Positions 14,688-33,902 of a DNA stretch of 64,000 nt are shown here, piece by piece (position 1 is the stretch's first letter; the number at the start of each line of letters is the position of its first letter). Source of the stretch: Myxococcus landrumus (lineage in GTDB: Bacteria; Myxococcota; Myxococcia; Myxococcales; Myxococcaceae); contig NZ_CP071091.1 of NCBI RefSeq assembly GCF_017301635.1, forward strand, positions 7,866,501 to 7,930,500, written 5' to 3'. Under the pieces are notes generated by a model that saw only the letters and a list, made by a program, of their open reading frames with translations, made no database searches and had not been told where the DNA came from. The position numbers and the translations under genes are program-made.

Positions 14688-15944
14688 ATGTCTCCGCTTC
14701 CTCCCGTGGATCGCAAGGTCCGGACACCTTCTTGGGTGAACAAGCCTTCTTCGACCACGCCGAACCCTGTCCAGGGGGCGGCGTCGACTCCGCCGAAGAA
14801 GGGGCCGTCTTCAACGGACTCCTTCCAGCCTCAGAGGCTGATAGGGCCGGTGGCTCCGCCTCCCGGGTCGAAGGGGCAGAAGATCACGAACGTCGAGACT
14901 CCGCTGCCCAAGAAGGAGGACCCGAAGGGCTTCGAGAACATCGAGACGTATCCCAAGCTCGTGGATACGCCCATCTCGACGGCGCAGCAGGTGGGCGCGT
15001 TCAAGGACAAGCTGAAGGATGTCTATACCCCCAGCCGCGAGGCGGGGAATGGCCGCATCAAGAGCGTGTGGAATGGGGGGCTTCGGGAGAACTACCGGAA
15101 CTTCCAGTTGGAGAGCGCGAACCCGAAGGATTTGGGGACGAAGCCCTGGGCCAACGTGGCGAACAAGGGCAATCCTGTCGTCACGAAGTTGGGTTTTGGT
15201 GCGGTGGACCTCCTCGGCAGGGGAAAGGGGAGCGCCGCACTGGATGCCCTGAATGGAGGTCTGACGAGCGGCAACCCGGAAACGCGCCGCCAGGCCCTGA
15301 GCGACGTGGCCGAGGGTGGGAAGGCCGCGACGGAGGCGCTCAAGGCGGGGCTCGAGACGAGACGTGACATCCAGAAGTACGGGAGTGCGTACCGGGCGGC
15401 CAGCAAGTCACTGGCCGCCGATGCTCCCAATCTCAAGGGCACGGCTCGCGCTTCAATCTCTCTCAACATCGCCAAGACAGCCTTCAACCATGTCGACGCG
15501 GGAGACATGGCGCCCGACGCGGCGGACACGAAGTTCGATGCGCTCAAGAAAGACACGCGTGCCTTTGTCAATGAGACCACCGCCAAGGCGCATGGCGCTG
15601 GCAGCAACGAGGTGAAGCGGCTGCTCAACAACGGGACGGGGAAGACCCTGAAGTCCGCTGACGATGCACTCAAGGCTGGCATCCATGCGGGTGCCAAGGC
15701 GGCGGGCAGCGGGCTCGCGAAGGGGGTGGGACGGTTTGTCCCTGGGGCGAACGTGGCCATCGCGGCTTTCGACACCGCGAAGTTCGCCTCGACGTTGACG
15801 GACCCCGAAGCGAATGCGGGCGAGCAGATAACGGCTGGCATCACCGCCGCGGGCTCCATCCTCGCGGCGACGAACATCCCCCTCGTGAGCCAGGCGGGTG
15901 CGGCCATCTCGACGGTGTCTGACTTCGTGGGCAGCTTCTTCTAG
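14688..15944 (+). CDS. Ala/Gly-rich helical protein, cassette copy 1 (unknown family)
   Basis: The 418-residue product is not a family I recognise. Residues 1-95 are Pro/Ser/Lys-rich and probably disordered; a helical Ala/Lys/Gly region follows. The last 71 residues, from GRFVPGANVAIAAF to VGSFF, align without gaps with the end of the protein at 20846-21874: I count 45 identities, including ATNIP, VSQ and STVS. This C-terminal module is hydrophobic with GxxxG-like spacing and could form a membrane-inserting helical hairpin. There is no signal peptide. Its stop is 8 bases before the trigger-factor-like gene, whose homologue also follows copy 2. A secreted or pore-forming effector, or a structural matrix protein, are possible roles; this is inference. 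Codon use is ordinary here, unlike copy 2. Confidence 0.8.
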   Translation: MSPLPPVDRKVRTPSWVNKPSSTTPNPVQGAASTPPKKGPSSTDSFQPQRLIGPVAPPPGSKGQKITNVETPLPKKEDPKGFENIETYPKLVDTPISTAQQVGAFKDKLKDVYTPSREAGNGRIKSVWNGGLRENYRNFQLESANPKDLGTKPWANVANKGNPVVTKLGFGAVDLLGRGKGSAALDALNGGLTSGNPETRRQALSDVAEGGKAATEALKAGLETRRDIQKYGSAYRAASKSLAADAPNLKGTARASISLNIAKTAFNHVDAGDMAPDAADTKFDALKKDTRAFVNETTAKAHGAGSNEVKRLLNNGTGKTLKSADDALKAGIHAGAKAAGSGLAKGVGRFVPGANVAIAAFDTAKFASTLTDPEANAGEQITAGITAAGSILAATNIPLVSQAGAAISTVSDFVGSFF

Positions 15945-15952
15945 AGGGTGCC

Positions 15953-17068
15953 ATGCACTTCCAAGACGATTCCAGGGGGATGGTACCGCCGTTCTCCATG
16001 GGAGAACTCCAGGGCCTGGGGATTCTGGCCAGGTCGCCGGGCGCGCTGGCCTTCCGGAGCACGGCGTCCGTCAGACTCCCGGCTGTGTCGGAGGCTCCTT
16101 CGTTGGAGGGGCTCCAAGTGACGGTCCCCGCTCCGGCCCCCATCACCCCGGAAGGTGTCCTCGAGCGCTACGAGGCGTTGAGCCGCGCTGTCGCCTCGCG
16201 AAGGGACCGCGCCCCGGGCGAAGGGGTGGCACTTGGGGATGATGTCCTCCTGGATGTCATTGGCTTCGTGAACGGAAGGCTCCTTCCCTTCTCCGCGCGT
16301 TCGGAGTGGTGGACGGAAGCCGCCCCGGACCCCTTGTTCCCGGGGTTCTTCGAGTCGCTGCCAGGCTCGAAGGTCGGTGAGACCCTCTCGGTGGAGTTCA
16401 TGCTCCCCATGGACTACCCGGTGGAGTCGCTCCGGGGTGTGGTGGCGCTGTTCGCGGTGGAGCTCAAGGCCGCGCGTGAAGTGAGTCCGCTGGACGAACA
16501 GTCCCCGGAGTTCTTCACCGCGCTCAGGCGAGGCGCCACGCTCGACGAGGTGATGGAGCACATCGCGGGAGAGCTCGCCGTCGAGCGAGATGCCCAAGCC
16601 GCGCGGAAGTGCCAGGACGAGGTTCTGCGGGAAGTGGCGCGCCGCACTCGCATCGAGGTGCCTCGGAGTCTCGTGGACGAGGAGCTTCGTCGGCGCTGGT
16701 CAGAGGCCGAGTACCCGGTGCTGGTCCGGCTCGGGATTCCTCTCGAGCAGATTCCCGAGGCATTCGAGGGGTGGTTGCAGGATGCGGGCATGCGGGGCGA
16801 CGCGGAGCATCGGCTTCGGCTGGGGCTGGGCCTTCGGGCCATCGCCACGCATGAGCGCCTGAGGCCCGTGCGTGAGGATGCGAAGGCGTTGTTCGACATC
16901 CTCGCGGACCGCACGAGGATGAGCCATGAAGCGCTGGGACAACTGCTTCAGTCCAACAGGGACGTCCAGCGGCGCTTCGACAGCCTGGCGATGCACGCGA
17001 CGGCCGTGAGCCATGTGCTGTCGAAGGTCCGGGTCGTCGAGGAGCCCACCGCGGCCGCGGCGGGGTAG
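15953..17068 (+). CDS. Trigger-factor-like chaperone without ribosome-binding domain, copy 1
   Basis: The 371-residue protein has the central FKBP-like and C-terminal arm domains of trigger factor. The FKBP-like part covers about 100-180 (LGDDVLLDVIGF ... GSKVGETLSVEF, then DYPVESLRG, as in trigger factor's PEDY-xxE-xLxGK). The arms follow (ATLDEVMEHIAGEL, IEVPRSLVDEELRRRW). The N-terminal ribosome-docking domain and its GFRxGKxP loop are absent; the first 75 residues are instead a short proline-containing leader. AGAGGG sits 4 bases before the ATG. It is translated right after the helical protein, and I infer that it holds or folds that partner. Cytoplasmic location follows from the lack of a signal peptide. 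Clear homology to 21996-23093 makes the call firm. Confidence 0.85.
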   Translation: MHFQDDSRGMVPPFSMGELQGLGILARSPGALAFRSTASVRLPAVSEAPSLEGLQVTVPAPAPITPEGVLERYEALSRAVASRRDRAPGEGVALGDDVLLDVIGFVNGRLLPFSARSEWWTEAAPDPLFPGFFESLPGSKVGETLSVEFMLPMDYPVESLRGVVALFAVELKAAREVSPLDEQSPEFFTALRRGATLDEVMEHIAGELAVERDAQAARKCQDEVLREVARRTRIEVPRSLVDEELRRRWSEAEYPVLVRLGIPLEQIPEAFEGWLQDAGMRGDAEHRLRLGLGLRAIATHERLRPVREDAKALFDILADRTRMSHEALGQLLQSNRDVQRRFDSLAMHATAVSHVLSKVRVVEEPTAAAAG

Positions 17069-19007: not shown

Positions 19008-19111
19008 GCGCGCACCTGCTTCGACGAGGTGCGAGCCCCAGAGGGATGTCGGAGTGACTTGGTAGCCCCGGCTTGATTGCACCGCGAGTGGTGCGAAGCC
19101 TGGAGGACGCC

Positions 19112-20317
19112 ATGAGAGTGGGGTGGGGAGGCGTGGCTCTGCTGTTGGGGAGCCTCGTGATGGGCTGCGCGACGACGCGAGCGGTCCACTTGGACCTGGG
19201 AGAGGGCGAGCCGCTCCTCTACCGCCCGCCGAGGAGTGAGCGCCCCATCGTGATTGACGAGGGCGAGTTCCAGCAGGCGATGACCCGGCTCGTGCTGGAC
19301 ATGCACTTCTCGATTCGTCCCGAGGCAGCGGCGCGTCCACGGACCCAGCTCGCCTCCTGGGAGGGAGGGGCTCGCACGGCGGGGCGGGACTATGGCGCAT
19401 GGTGTTCGCGGCAGGACCAACCAGGCGAGTGCCTCTCCTTGTTGGAGGATGGCTTCGCGGTTCTTGATGCCCGTGCGCGGCGGAAGCTGGCCCTGTCATT
19501 CGCCTGGGATGGCGTGTGGGAAGGCGTGCAGGACGCGGTGAAGGACGTCGTGAACCCACTCGCGCTCAAGGCGATGCTGACGTCGGCGATGGCCGCATAC
19601 ATGTTCCTGGTCGTGGCGCCCGAGCCCCTGACCAAGGTCGTGGCCATCGCCCTGACGACCTACGTCATCGCGTACATCGGCTTGGACTCCTTCACGAACA
19701 TGGTGGGGGGATGGCAGCGACTCTCCATGGCTGCGGAGCACGCCCTCTCCCTGGAGGAATTGGAGGAAGCTGGGCGCCACTTCGGAAGGGTGATGGGGGA
19801 GAACGGCGCGCGTGTCCTGATACTCGCGCTGACGGCGGTGTTGGGAGGCGGTGTGGCGAACATGGCCGCGAAAGGCCCGATGCTGCCGGGCTTTGCCCGA
19901 GCCGCGTTGGCCGCCGAGACCCAGATGGGTCTGCGGATGTCCGCGGCATTCACCGGTGGCGTTCGTTCCATCTTCCTGGCCGAGGGCATCCTGACCGTGG
20001 GGGTCACCGCCGGTGCCGTGGCCATGACGGCTTGGAACAACGGAGAGGGAGGAGGGGCGGAGCGCAGTCCCCACGGGGAGCAGCGCGCGAACGAGGCCCG
20101 CGAGGGTGACGCGCACCGGCAGGTGGGGGATGCGAACCGAGTCCTTCACGAAGGGCGGAAGTTCACGGACGCGGAGACCGGGAACGTGGTGTATGTGTCC
20201 GGCGACAGGGTCGTCATCACGGACGCGCTGGGGCGGATCATCACCCAGTTCAAGAACCCCCGGGCGAACACGCAGGCCCGAATCCAGAGTGGCAGATGGG
20301 TGCCGGTCCATGAGTAA
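19112..20317 (+). CDS. SitA5-like polymorphic lipoprotein toxin
   Basis: The 401-residue product has a lipoprotein signal peptide (lipobox LVMGC) then the CATTRAVHLDLGEGEPL beginning typical of the SitA5-type toxins of myxobacteria. The body also fits that family: YGAWCSRQDQPGECLSLLEDG, a hydrophobic segment near AAYMFLVVAPEPLTKV and a second long hydrophobic region to about residue 300. SitA proteins are moved between sibling cells by TraAB outer-membrane exchange and kill relatives lacking the immunity protein. The last 75 or so residues (after RSPHGEQRANE) form the variable toxin domain, with VVYVSGDRVVITD and IQSGRWVP motifs that recall BECR-type RNases such as colicin-like tips; that activity is inference. 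GGAGG precedes the ATG. The stop overlaps the next gene by 8 bases. Confidence 0.85.
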   Translation: MRVGWGGVALLLGSLVMGCATTRAVHLDLGEGEPLLYRPPRSERPIVIDEGEFQQAMTRLVLDMHFSIRPEAAARPRTQLASWEGGARTAGRDYGAWCSRQDQPGECLSLLEDGFAVLDARARRKLALSFAWDGVWEGVQDAVKDVVNPLALKAMLTSAMAAYMFLVVAPEPLTKVVAIALTTYVIAYIGLDSFTNMVGGWQRLSMAAEHALSLEELEEAGRHFGRVMGENGARVLILALTAVLGGGVANMAAKGPMLPGFARAALAAETQMGLRMSAAFTGGVRSIFLAEGILTVGVTAGAVAMTAWNNGEGGGAERSPHGEQRANEAREGDAHRQVGDANRVLHEGRKFTDAETGNVVYVSGDRVVITDALGRIITQFKNPRANTQARIQSGRWVPVHE

Positions 20318-20591
20318 GCAGCTTCTGTACAAGCCCGTGGATGTCTACCGGCGCCTCGATGGCAACGAGGCTGTGATCTACCGGTGTCTCGAGCTGCTCC
20401 CAGGCGGTGGTTTCATCGTCCAGAGCGCCGACAGAGTGCGGCTCCCATTCGACGCGGGGACGTTGACCCGGCACGAACGGCAGTTCTGGGAGCTGTTCTG
20501 CGAGGTCGCGCCCGAAGAGAGGACACCGCCGTCCCCCTCCATCGAAGAGGCCATCGCCCTCTTCGATTCCGAGTTCGGAAACGGGGGATAG
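20310..20591 (+). CDS. Putative SitI-type immunity protein
   Basis: This 93-residue protein begins inside the end of the toxin gene (8-base overlap, ATGAGTAA), the usual position of a SitI immunity gene. It has no signal peptide or membrane segment and is acidic towards the end (APEERTPPSPSIEEAIALFDSEF), as would suit a binder of a basic nuclease domain. I do not recognise the sequence family, so the role rests on gene order and size. Confidence 0.65.
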   Translation: MSKQLLYKPVDVYRRLDGNEAVIYRCLELLPGGGFIVQSADRVRLPFDAGTLTRHERQFWELFCEVAPEERTPPSPSIEEAIALFDSEFGNGG

Positions 20592-20845: not shown

Positions 20846-21874
20846 ATGGGTTTCCCCGACATCAAGAAGACCTTCAACACCGTCCGCGCCAACGTCCAGA
20901 AGACCTTCCAGGAGAACAAGGAAGTCATCAAGGGCGGGGCCGCTGTCGTCGCCCAGAGCGCGAAGGCCTTTGCTTTCAGCAAGGACACCTTCCAGCAGAT
21001 CAAGAACATCAAGAACGGCGCTGAAGGCCTCCTCGGGAAGACGAACTTCGACTTCGTCAAGAACCCCACCTTCAAGGAAGGCTTCAAGGGTCTGTCCAAG
21101 CTGGGCGCGAACATGAACGCCGCCCTCCGCTTCGCGGGCATCCCCGCGGCGGGCATGTCCATCGCGACCGCGGCCAAGGACATCCGTCAGGCCATCCGCA
21201 CGGGCAGCAAGGACGACATCATCACGGCCACCCGCTCCGGCCTGGATGCGACCAAGGCCACCATCACGGCGGCCACCGGCGGCATCCTCGGCGGCAAGGT
21301 GATGGGCGGCATCCTCGGCGGCACCCTGATGAAGGGCAAGCTGGACTCCGGCAAGGCGGCCCTGGACGCGTTCAAGAAGGCGCTCCCGAACGCCAGCGAC
21401 GACGTCCTCAAGGCCGTCAAGAACGCCGCCACCAAGGGCGTGATGGAGGGTGCGTCCCTGAAGAACGTGGGCCGCGCCATCAGCTCCGCCGCGGGCGACG
21501 CCGCCAAGGCCGGCAGCTCCCTGGCCAAGGGCATCCTGGGCAGCGGCACCCGCTCGGCCGCCAAGGCCGCGCTGGCCACCGTCGGCCGCGAGGCCGGTGA
21601 GGCCGCCCTCAAGCAGGGTGCGAAGGCCGCCGCTGGCACCGCCGCCAAGGCCCTGGGCCGCTTCGCCCCGGGCGTCAACGTCGCCATCGCCGCCGTCGAC
21701 GTGGCCAACGCCGGCGCGACGCTGATGGACAAGAACGCGGGTGTGGGCAAGAAGGTGACCTCGGTCATCACCGCCGTGGGCTCCATCGCCGCCGCGACCA
21801 ACATCCCCATCGTCAGCCAGGTCGGCGCCGCGGTCTCCACGGTGTCCAGCATCGTGGGCGCCTTCTTCAAGTAA
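20846..21874 (+). CDS. Ala/Gly-rich helical protein, cassette copy 2, high-expression codon use
   Basis: The 342-residue product starts MGFPDIKKTFNTVRANVQ and is rich in Ala, Gly, Lys and Ser, mostly predicted helix, without signal peptide or Cys. Glycine-rich hydrophobic stretches (GGILGGKVMGGILGGTLM near residues 148-165) suggest membrane contact. The last 72 residues, from GRFAPGVNVAIAA to VGAFFK, match copy 1 with 45 of 71 positions identical. Codons end almost always in C or in AAG (GCC, GGC, ATC, AAC), much more biased than flanking genes, which suggests high expression. A strong hairpin follows the stop, then the chaperone gene. The most likely reading is an abundant secreted or assembled protein, possibly a bacteriocin-like pore former; nothing proves this and the family is unknown to me. 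Confidence 0.85.
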   Translation: MGFPDIKKTFNTVRANVQKTFQENKEVIKGGAAVVAQSAKAFAFSKDTFQQIKNIKNGAEGLLGKTNFDFVKNPTFKEGFKGLSKLGANMNAALRFAGIPAAGMSIATAAKDIRQAIRTGSKDDIITATRSGLDATKATITAATGGILGGKVMGGILGGTLMKGKLDSGKAALDAFKKALPNASDDVLKAVKNAATKGVMEGASLKNVGRAISSAAGDAAKAGSSLAKGILGSGTRSAAKAALATVGREAGEAALKQGAKAAAGTAAKALGRFAPGVNVAIAAVDVANAGATLMDKNAGVGKKVTSVITAVGSIAAATNIPIVSQVGAAVSTVSSIVGAFFK

Positions 21875-21902
21875 GCGGTCAATCTTTCGCGGTTTGTCAG
21901 AG

Positions 21903-21950
21903 CGGCTCGGCTGGACTAAGCCTTAGTCCATGCCGAGCCGTCGCTTTGTT
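21903..21950 (+). terminator. Strong intrinsic-type hairpin between effector and chaperone genes
   Basis: CGGCTCGGC (21903-21911) pairs with GCCGAGCCG (21932-21940) and, inside it, GGACTAA pairs with TTAGTCC around a 3-base loop; 16 base pairs in total. TCGCTTTGTT follows, a broken T-run. It would end most transcripts 29 bases after the helical-protein stop and allow some readthrough into the chaperone gene, setting a stoichiometry in which the first product is in excess. Confidence 0.75.
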
Positions 21951-21995
21951 CCCCATTGGCGCGGACGCTGGCACGCCTATCTTCCGGGAGCATCC

Positions 21996-23093
21996 GTGAG
22001 CAGCAGCAGCAGCAATCAAGGTTCAGGTCGGGGCGTCGAGCGTCTGTTGAAGATGAGCCCCGTGGTGAGCACCGCCTCCGCGGAGTCGCTCAAGCTCCCC
22101 AACGTGGAGGCCCCTTCCCTCGACGGGATTGCCGTCCTCGTCCCCACGCCCGAGGACTTGACCGAGGACGACCTCCTGCGCGCCTTCCACGAGAAGCGCC
22201 GGAGCGTCGCCACCACGCGCGACCGCGAGAAGGGGGAGTCCCTCGAGCTGGGCGACAACGTCCAGCTCAACGTCGTGGGCTACTGCGACGGTGTCCTCAT
22301 CCCCTTCTCCGCGCGCTTCGGCATGTCCACGGAGCTGGCCCCCATCGAGGCGATGCCCGGCTTCTGCGAGACCGTGGCCCAGGGCGGCAAGGTGGGCGAG
22401 TCCATGCAGATTGCCCTCGAGCTGCCGGAGGACTACCCGGTGGAGGCGCTCCAGGGGAAGCCCGCGCGGTTCCTCATCGACGTCGTCGGCGCCCAGCAGG
22501 TGACGATGCTGTCGGAGAGCTCGCCGGAGTTCTTCGAGAAGCTGGGGATGGGCGGCACGCTGGATGAGGTGCTGAACAACATCCGCGAGGAGCTGGAGGA
22601 CGAAGTCGCCGGCCAGCTCTGGGTGCAGGCCCAGGACATGGTGCTGGACGAGGTGGCCCGGCGCACGCCGGTGGAGCTGCCCAAGGCGCTGGTGGAGGAG
22701 GAGATTCGCCGCCGCTGGGTCCAGGCCGAAGGCCAGGCGATGGTCGAGTACAACTTCGACGTCGAGGAGCAGCAGGAAGCGCTCCGAGGCTGGCTCGCGG
22801 ACCCCACCACGCGCGCGGACGTCGAGCGCCGGCTGCACATCGGCCTCGCGCTGAAGGCCGTCACCGAGGCGGAGAAGCTTCAGCTCACTCCGGAGAAGCT
22901 CGAGGAGCTGATTCGCGAGCACATGGAGCCCTTCGGGTTCGGCGCGGAGGAAGTCGCCGCCGCCCTGCGCGAGACGCCGGAGACGACCAAGAAGCTGGTC
23001 GAGCTGGGCTGGTACCTGTTCGCCGTCGAGCACGTGATGAACAAGGCGAAGGTCACCTTCGAGGGCGCGGACGAGGGCGCGGCGCAGGGCTGA
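21996..23093 (+). CDS. Trigger-factor-like chaperone without ribosome-binding domain, copy 2
   Basis: The 365-residue protein carries an FKBP-like domain at about 85-165 (LGDNVQLNVVGYCDGV, GKVGESMQIALELPEDY, PVEALQGKPARF) and the trigger-factor C-terminal arms (TLDEVLNNIREELEDEV, VELPKALVEEEIRRRW). The region that in trigger factor binds the ribosome is missing, replaced by a Ser-rich leader. I chose the GTG at 21996 because GGGAG lies 5 bases upstream; an earlier in-frame ATG at 21930 falls inside the terminator hairpin and is unlikely. It is the homologue of 15953-17068 and follows the helical-protein gene as that one does. I infer a dedicated holdase or prolyl isomerase for that protein. 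A clear terminator ends the unit. Confidence 0.88.
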   Translation: MSSSSSNQGSGRGVERLLKMSPVVSTASAESLKLPNVEAPSLDGIAVLVPTPEDLTEDDLLRAFHEKRRSVATTRDREKGESLELGDNVQLNVVGYCDGVLIPFSARFGMSTELAPIEAMPGFCETVAQGGKVGESMQIALELPEDYPVEALQGKPARFLIDVVGAQQVTMLSESSPEFFEKLGMGGTLDEVLNNIREELEDEVAGQLWVQAQDMVLDEVARRTPVELPKALVEEEIRRRWVQAEGQAMVEYNFDVEEQQEALRGWLADPTTRADVERRLHIGLALKAVTEAEKLQLTPEKLEELIREHMEPFGFGAEEVAAALRETPETTKKLVELGWYLFAVEHVMNKAKVTFEGADEGAAQG

Positions 23094-26314: not shown

Positions 26315-26516
26315 CCTGTTGGACAAGGGCTCCCGGTCCTGCGGGTTTCACCCGCGGTATCCGGAAGTTGGGGTTCAAAGTTCAGTACGCGACAAACCCT
26401 CCCGCAGAGTGGGGACTTGAATCGACAAGTCCGCGAACTCTCAGGAGATTCGGTCGGATTTGCCCGTCGGGCGACCGCGGTGCGCGGCGCTCAAACCGAT
26501 CAGAAGGGTTCTTCTC

Positions 26517-33902
<7,386 letters not shown>

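Follow-up and report, generated by a model that had tools for sequence, protein, structure and literature searches.

Trigger-factor homologues without a ribosome-docking domain look like private helpers of an adjacent alanine-rich protein family

By standard teaching, trigger factor (TF) is the general chaperone that acts first at the bacterial ribosome. Copies lacking the N-terminal domain (N-less TFs) have so far been explained as duplicates that escape a dosage limit. Those of the Cystobacterineae have already been described by Wan et al. 2024 (PMC11559001). According to the portions of that paper available to us, a single TF occurs in 97.44% of TF-containing genomes, and within Myxococcales multiple TFs are limited to Cystobacterineae, where up to seven are found and the extra copies are without the N domain; extra TFs of Clostridia were also counted. 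In M. xanthus, the complete TF was the only one of four homologues to co-sediment with ribosomes, while the three purified N-less proteins did not. GAPDH was refolded by all four TFs, whereas aggregation was prevented by the complete one only. Deletion of TF genes resulted in stress and sporulation phenotypes, and single deletions grew like the wild type at 30 °C. The pull-down lists of the individual TFs overlapped partly and were mostly unique, and the potential substrates of the three N-less TFs include ribosomal proteins and OmpA. The toxicity of TF overproduction was eased by removal of the N domain, and the authors concluded that the TF copies are subfunctionalised. In the main text of the paper, as available to us, operon, adjacent and genomic context are absent as terms, and neighbor occurs once.

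A second system of relevance is that of the Eag (EagR) chaperones of type VI effectors which, in the parts of the sources available to us, are co-encoded with one partner class and shield its hydrophobic helices (PMC7773334, PMC12881460).

The window analysed here is a stretch of 64,000 nucleotides from Myxococcus landrumus. It contains two pairs, each consisting of a partner gene and a TF gene, with the following features.

14688-15944, + strand: partner 1 (putative client), 418 aa, with a Pro-rich N-terminus and an Ala/Gly-rich body, from the open reading frame and domain homology
15570-15941, + strand: shared C-terminal domain of partner 1 (RFxPGxNVAIA...GSxxAATNIPxVSQxGAxxS), from an alignment of 25 sequences
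15953-17068, + strand: TF 1, N-less TF homologue, 371 aa, Trigger_C E 4.7e-15
20846-21874, + strand: partner 2 (putative client) of 342 aa, without Cys or Trp and with a net charge of +25; its start Met is conserved among relatives
21485-21871, + strand: shared C-terminal domain of partner 2, from an alignment of 25 sequences
21898-21948, + strand: inverted repeat at the junction of partner 2 and TF 2, either an RNA hairpin or a palindromic DNA site, from folding and alignment
21930-23093, + strand: TF 2, N-less TF homologue, 387 aa, Trigger_C E 1.4e-17, with an AlphaFold2 model
21930-21995, + strand: conserved basic/aromatic leader of TF 2 (MPSRRFxPHWRGRWxxYLPG), from the relatives' alignment and codon counts

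The original prediction held that both chaperones had lost the ribosome-docking domain and had kept FKBP-like and C-terminal regions, and the analysis bears this out. TF 1 and TF 2 both matched Trigger_C (Pfam), and neither matched Trigger_N even at E ≤ 1. Against the NCBIfam tig profile TIGR00115 (410 positions), the alignment begins only at position 101 for TF 2 and at 96 for TF 1, with 139.5 and 113.5 bits, respectively, both below the curated cut-off of 180.2. The open frames (388 aa for TF 2 and 381 aa for TF 1) are too short for an N domain upstream. By Pfam, FKBP was weak in TF 1 (E 0.18) and gave no match in TF 2 at E ≤ 1, but it is clear in the AlphaFold2 model of TF 2 (pLDDT 83.6, 33-row alignment), which fits PPIase domains with Z of about 10 and rmsd of about 2, among them the M. 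genitalium TF PPIase (1hxv, Z 10.4) and SlyD (Z 10.5). The same model aligned with residues 108-422 of the 432 in E. coli TF (1w26) at Z 16.0, a flexible multi-domain fit with an rmsd of 11.8 over 303 residues; the second-best structural match was chloroplast TIG1 (7zgi, Z 15.3), an organelle TF of another lineage. The window TFs thus have the FKBP PPIase domain and the C-terminal body in common with canonical TF and differ from it in being without the N domain and the GFRxGKxP loop.

Among 33 aligned homologues, Trigger_C was present in all, FKBP_C (Pfam, E ≤ 1) in 18, and Trigger_N was absent in 32. The one exception, a Sericytochromatia protein, matched only from profile position 61 on. The divergent TF_N that would refute the original prediction is thus absent from 32 of the 33. 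The genome of the source strain (10.37 Mb) has a single Trigger_N gene, the canonical tig (425 aa), which carries GFRQGKVP, and four Trigger_C genes, namely tig, TF 1, TF 2 and a third N-less copy (G000:C1:5383789) 2.5 Mb distant from the window. The M. xanthus N-less TFs MXAN_6153, MXAN_1178 and MXAN_1713 come from the same bacterial group and likewise combine domain loss with one canonical TF alongside (PMC11559001, in the portions available); the window TFs very probably belong to the same family, a comparison made at family level and not gene by gene.

Among phage protein families, TF 2 also matched phrog_26774, which has no assigned function (E 2.6e-26, over positions 112-422 of 435), and TF-like genes therefore occur in some phages. 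Among plasmids, nine records matched TF 2; the eight listed have 24-28% identity, and five of them are annotated tig.

The original prediction needs correction at the start of the second gene, placed there at 21996. ATG 21930 is probably the start rather than GTG 21996, because the 22 residues ahead of 21996 (MPSRRFVPHWRGRWHAYLPGAS) are conserved among relatives and codons 5-22 look to be under purifying selection. In a crude count over 13 sequences, the nonsynonymous/synonymous ratio was 0.25 for codons 5-13 and 0.38 for codons 5-22; it was 0.72 both for codons 1-4, which lie within the repeat arm, and for codons 23-42, the latter value being inflated by ungapped indels. GGGAG precedes GTG 21996, and an internal start of TF 2 there is less likely. 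In the TF 2 subgroup, the leader occupies the place of the TF_N domain.

The region 21875-21960 has a folding energy of -40.2 kcal/mol (z -4.65), and the 3' arm of the inverted repeat contains the ATG of TF 2. Both arms are near-invariant in 12 sequences, the window among them, and covariation is uninformative because the stem pairs hardly vary. The exact pattern was found as a single occurrence in each of 42 of 237 scanned loci, which overlap partly and of which some are copies of one place. The repeat may set TF output as an attenuator or act as an operator.

In both window pairs the partner gene is directly upstream, and TF 1 starts 8 bp past the stop of partner 1. The C-terminal domains of partners 1 and 2 are 51% identical (E 1.6e-24). 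This domain of about 130 residues has three copies in the source genome (search at E ≤ 0.01), and the three N-less TFs and three domains all form adjacent pairs with the domain gene directly upstream. A slightly longer query covering the partner 2 domain was 94-100% identical in the best 18 matches and 82-100% in the best 34, from several genera.

The window partners matched no Pfam family over cut-off and no NCBIfam, PADLOC or PHROGs family at the limits used, and no Pfam effector domain exceeded the cut-off in the partners tested. A Csm3 match of one partner relative (PADLOC, E 0.008) was at chance level. A tape-measure match (PHROGs, E 2.4e-25, residues 756-810) was confined to one 813-aa relative and is probably repeat-driven. 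Searches for the partner domain in IMG/VR contigs and for partner 2 in phage records found no relative. Compared with solved structures, the partner profiles best matched designed helical proteins (best E 0.0057), which reflects composition, with otherwise chance-level matches and no pore-former. The AlphaFold2 model of partner 2 is all-helical at low confidence (pLDDT 51, pTM 0.38), and the partner is probably a helical protein.

Across 31 partners, A+G+S+T+V made up 0.46-0.65 of the residues, compared with a TF mean of 0.35, net charge was +11 to +38, and there were 0-2 Cys and 0-3 Trp. Their best 19-residue hydropathy was 1.30-1.67, which in 29 of the 31 is below 1.6, the usual transmembrane threshold. 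Cationic charge is not general for partners, because the three in a Sericytochromatia genome have net charges of -37, -11 and +6. The N-termini of the partners are variable, and the C-terminal domain is conserved and semi-hydrophobic. A chain of this kind could plausibly serve as a holdase substrate, and the partner may be a pore-former, an exported protein or a structural protein.

The pairing was assessed in 96 genomes of the host family, which gave 144 strong N-less TF matches (70 genomes) and 149 domain matches (71 genomes). TF matches weaker than E 2.3e-35, six of them among the matches listed and the rest beyond the listing, were counted as canonical and kept outside the 144; one that was checked (L089) has GFRPGK. 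Two weak Trigger_C matches (L172, L173) were SurA-like by eye and were dropped. The domain was found upstream, on the same strand and within 1.5 kb, of 134 of the 144 N-less TFs, with a gap of 57-643 bp (median 149) between the matched parts. Apart from these, a TF and a domain lie within 5 kb of each other only in genomes G069 and G072, each of which has a shortened TF 1 in the vicinity of partner 2. Both genes were present in 70 of the 96 genomes, the TF only in none, the domain only in one (G053) and neither in 25 (Fisher p 3e-22, a nominal value as the genomes are related).

Scanning 84,980 species genomes of a named collection, whose species overlap with those of the family, gave 66 domain loci. 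A TF adjoins in 60 of these, in 59 behind the partner (eight of them judged from overlapping stop-to-stop frames) and in one, from Sericytochromatia, between two partners. Among the unpaired loci, the sequence ends 126 and 283 bp past the partner in L111 and L113, and in L151 the contig end is 843 bp ahead of the partner; in L145, L147 and L155 flanking sequence is available and the TF is absent.

The exceptions within the family consist of 10 of the 144 N-less TFs and 15 of the 149 domain matches. The features concerned, together with related ones from metagenome-assembled genomes (MAGs), are as follows.

L081:4371-5783, + strand: protein with SSLAHGAxSGHGPLAQAI-type repeats ahead of the N-less TF in G034, a third partner type
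L084:9946-11511 and L085:10197-11777, - strand: TF 1 kept and partner 1 missing in the close relatives G069 and G072, from a profile match
L059:5728-6279, L060, L061, L062, L063 and L064: solitary proteins of the genus Myxococcus with a divergent partner domain, frames of 156-190 aa, no TF adjoining
L066, L067, L069 and L070: partners rich in Pro (PPPP...) whose middle holds an additional conserved region, no TF nearby
L171:3-635, + strand, and L170:2748-3236, - strand: Gly/Leu repeat proteins (GGIGGILKGLLGGILGG...) directly ahead of N-less TFs in two MAGs

In three of the ten unpaired TFs, at most 209 bp separate the contig start from the beginning of the TF; five are without the domain upstream and two are shortened. 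In G040 (C13), a partner-like stretch without the domain shares one open frame with the TF. In G042, the TF at C101 is without a partner and a partner that by eye matches it in kind lies unlinked at C10, while the TF at C21 has another small protein upstream. The TFs of G033 and G034, which are near-identical (L082 and L081), follow an Ala/Gly/Ser/His repeat protein (read in G034 only). The shortened TF 1 copies of G069 and G072, where partner 1 is absent, match the profile of about 342 positions only as far as 305-306 and are read as one event of decay.

The 15 unpaired domain matches comprise the six short solitary proteins, the four Pro-rich partners, an intact partner beside a 76-aa TF remnant (L068), those of G042 and G053 and two at contig edges. 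Of the latter, the domain at G065:C191 lies at a contig start, and that at G019:C586 probably lies at a contig end, judged from its likely counterpart L113.

TF and partner also diverge in a correlated manner. Over 57 pairs, TF distances and partner distances gave a Mantel r of 0.62 (0 of 2000 permutations as high), a test which does not separate co-evolution from co-inheritance, and in only 36 of the 57 did the closest relative of the TF also rank among the three closest judged by partner. When 42 N-less or loop-less TFs and seven canonical TFs were placed in a tree, a single branch separated the two kinds (SH-aLRT 99, quick method). Grouping the two loop-less TFs of the Sericytochromatia genome G096 with the canonical TF of that genome was rejected (p-AU 0.0047), in a test chosen after the tree had been seen and affected by long branches. 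Because of the long branches and the differing residue make-up, the tree is support, not proof, that N-less and loop-less TFs form one old lineage.

In the host phylum, the domain was found in 73 of 195 genomes, 71 of them in the family and two outside it; in the phylum of G096, it was found in 9 of 292. Genomes G096, G203, G209 and G228 contain canonical TF as well as, in total, eight TFs without the GFRxGK loop (by eye), six of which are adjoined by the partner domain. The domain is strong in L156/L163, L230 and L236 and weak in L168 (E 1.6e-4), L231 (4.9e-7) and L232 (2.2e-3), with the E-values computed within our small ORF set; none was found within 1.5 kb of the loop-less TFs L235 and L237. 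In G096, one TF stands between two partners, so that the order varies and adjacency holds. The other five of the nine genomes (G212, G217, G222, G237 and G097), like G053 in the family, show the domain but no additional TF in the assembly, and in G097 the partner sits at a contig end.

Trigger_N (Pfam, E < 0.01) was detected in five of the eight loop-less TFs, three of them over the cut-off, from profile positions 61-71, which we take to lie past the ribosome loop. It was doubtful in L231 (E 0.06) and absent in L237 and L232. Loop-less TFs with a partial N domain suggest a possible route in which the ribosome loop was lost first and the whole domain later. Three further MAGs, which by title are Deltaproteobacteria, Myxococcales and a bacterium, carry TF-partner pairs; two of them have four more N-less TFs, two behind the Gly/Leu repeat proteins, which are a second, unrelated partner type, and two without a clear partner.

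These observations make the N-less TFs look like private helpers of the alanine-rich partner family. We consider it likely that an old TF paralogue lineage, freed from the ribosome, has become the co-encoded chaperone of one protein class. The N-less TF would then probably bind the product of its neighbour off the ribosome and shield its semi-hydrophobic stretches until placement; here we infer physical binding, the holdase role and the final function of the partner from the arrangement of the genes. The partner gene would be translated first, and its Ala/Gly/Ser/Val-rich, semi-hydrophobic product would be prone to early aggregation or membrane insertion. Made just behind it, the N-less TF would cradle stretches of the partner with its two C-terminal arms and FKBP head. 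It would do so post-translationally, away from the ribosome, for as long as the partner has not arrived where it belongs. A bolder form of this reading, which we regard as doubtful, is that the TF lineage left the ribosome once and early, and in two phyla came to escort a class of Ala/Gly-rich helical proteins that are exported or act on membranes, with Sericytochromatia and relatives keeping an intermediate that is without the front of the N domain, ribosome loop included, and retains the remainder.

The original prediction had further held that the two proteins look like dedicated chaperones tied to one client, a reading that is partly supported. The partner upstream of 134 of the 144 TFs speaks for dedication; the M. 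xanthus pull-down lists and the deletion phenotypes, which concern stress and sporulation rather than a single evident client (PMC11559001, in the portions available), the unpaired cases and the genomes with the domain only argue against strict one-client exclusiveness. Because the pull-down lists are varied and unrelated Gly/Ala-rich genes also stand upstream, the client is at best a class and not one protein.

According to the published view, N-less TFs are general chaperones that split the duties of TF, the N domain was lost against dosage toxicity and the neighbour is incidental. Refolding of GAPDH by all four M. xanthus TFs, ordinary TF substrates in the pull-downs, the stress and sporulation phenotypes and the relief of overproduction toxicity without the N domain (PMC11559001, as far as available to us) are in its favour. 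Against it stand the near one-to-one pairing in 70 genomes, seen again in another phylum, and a tree placement that is one-sided and not that of repeated late duplications, with the G096 grouping rejected (post hoc and with long branches). We regard this view as unlikely.

It is also conceivable, although we rate it as quite improbable, that the two genes are a toxin-antidote pair in which a membrane-active partner (pore-forming, colicin-like) is kept harmless to its producer by the TF until release. The hosts are predatory, the partners are poor in Cys and Trp, Ala/Gly-rich and, in Myxococcota, cationic, their semi-hydrophobic C-terminal domain is conserved behind variable N-termini, and in one case the TF is shortened where the partner is lost. 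However, single TF deletions in M. xanthus grow like the wild type at 30 °C (PMC11559001, in part), the partner profiles match no solved pore-former and hydropathy is below the transmembrane threshold in nearly all partners. The domain is also highly similar between several genera (82-100% in the best 34 matches), unlike fast-changing toxins. Among the best 45 neighbour rows, from 33 loci, only antisense frames of the pair and protein kinases were seen by reading, and no secretion-system, effector/spike or immunity-like gene was among them.

That the TF shares the stress or developmental cue of the partner by co-transcription only and folds other proteins, for which the tight spacing and the conserved inverted repeat suggest shared expression control, is very improbable, as a Hyalangium versicolor partner and its matching TF (by eye) are unlinked in one genome, and as gene order in Sericytochromatia varies while adjacency holds, so that a direct functional link fits better than one shared promoter.

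If the bolder reading is true, TF has taken the role held elsewhere by Eag or type III chaperones. Eag chaperones have a fold different from that of TF. To our knowledge, chloroplast TIG1 has no known partner gene. The likeness to Eag lies in the adjoining partner, with service to that neighbour being presumed for the TFs, and the difference in the conserved neighbours of the pairs, among which (best 45 rows, 33 loci) no secretion-system gene is present. Compared with the copies of Wan et al. 2024, read there as subfunctionalised in the portions available, the TFs described here come with a partner gene beside them, and in another phylum they have relatives that keep part of the N domain. As far as our literature searches go, and these covered sources in part, what is new is the class of co-encoded partners, the occurrence in a second phylum and the intermediate without the loop. 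A near-constant partner gene provides a testable case of a general chaperone turned private, offers a candidate substrate for the M. xanthus N-less TFs and opens a family of partner proteins in predatory, sporulating bacteria.

Other genes of the window lie close to the two pairs. Between them stand a SitA5-family polymorphic toxin (19073-20317, + strand; NCBIfam NF050093, 268.6 bits vs a cut-off of 160) and, after it, a 93-aa frame (20310-20591, + strand), possibly the immunity gene of the toxin. Past the second pair, on its downstream side, a 2480-aa frame (26460-33902, + strand) contains many near-identical repeats, HAMP-like by eye, followed in the ORF translation by histidine-kinase and receiver-like sequence.
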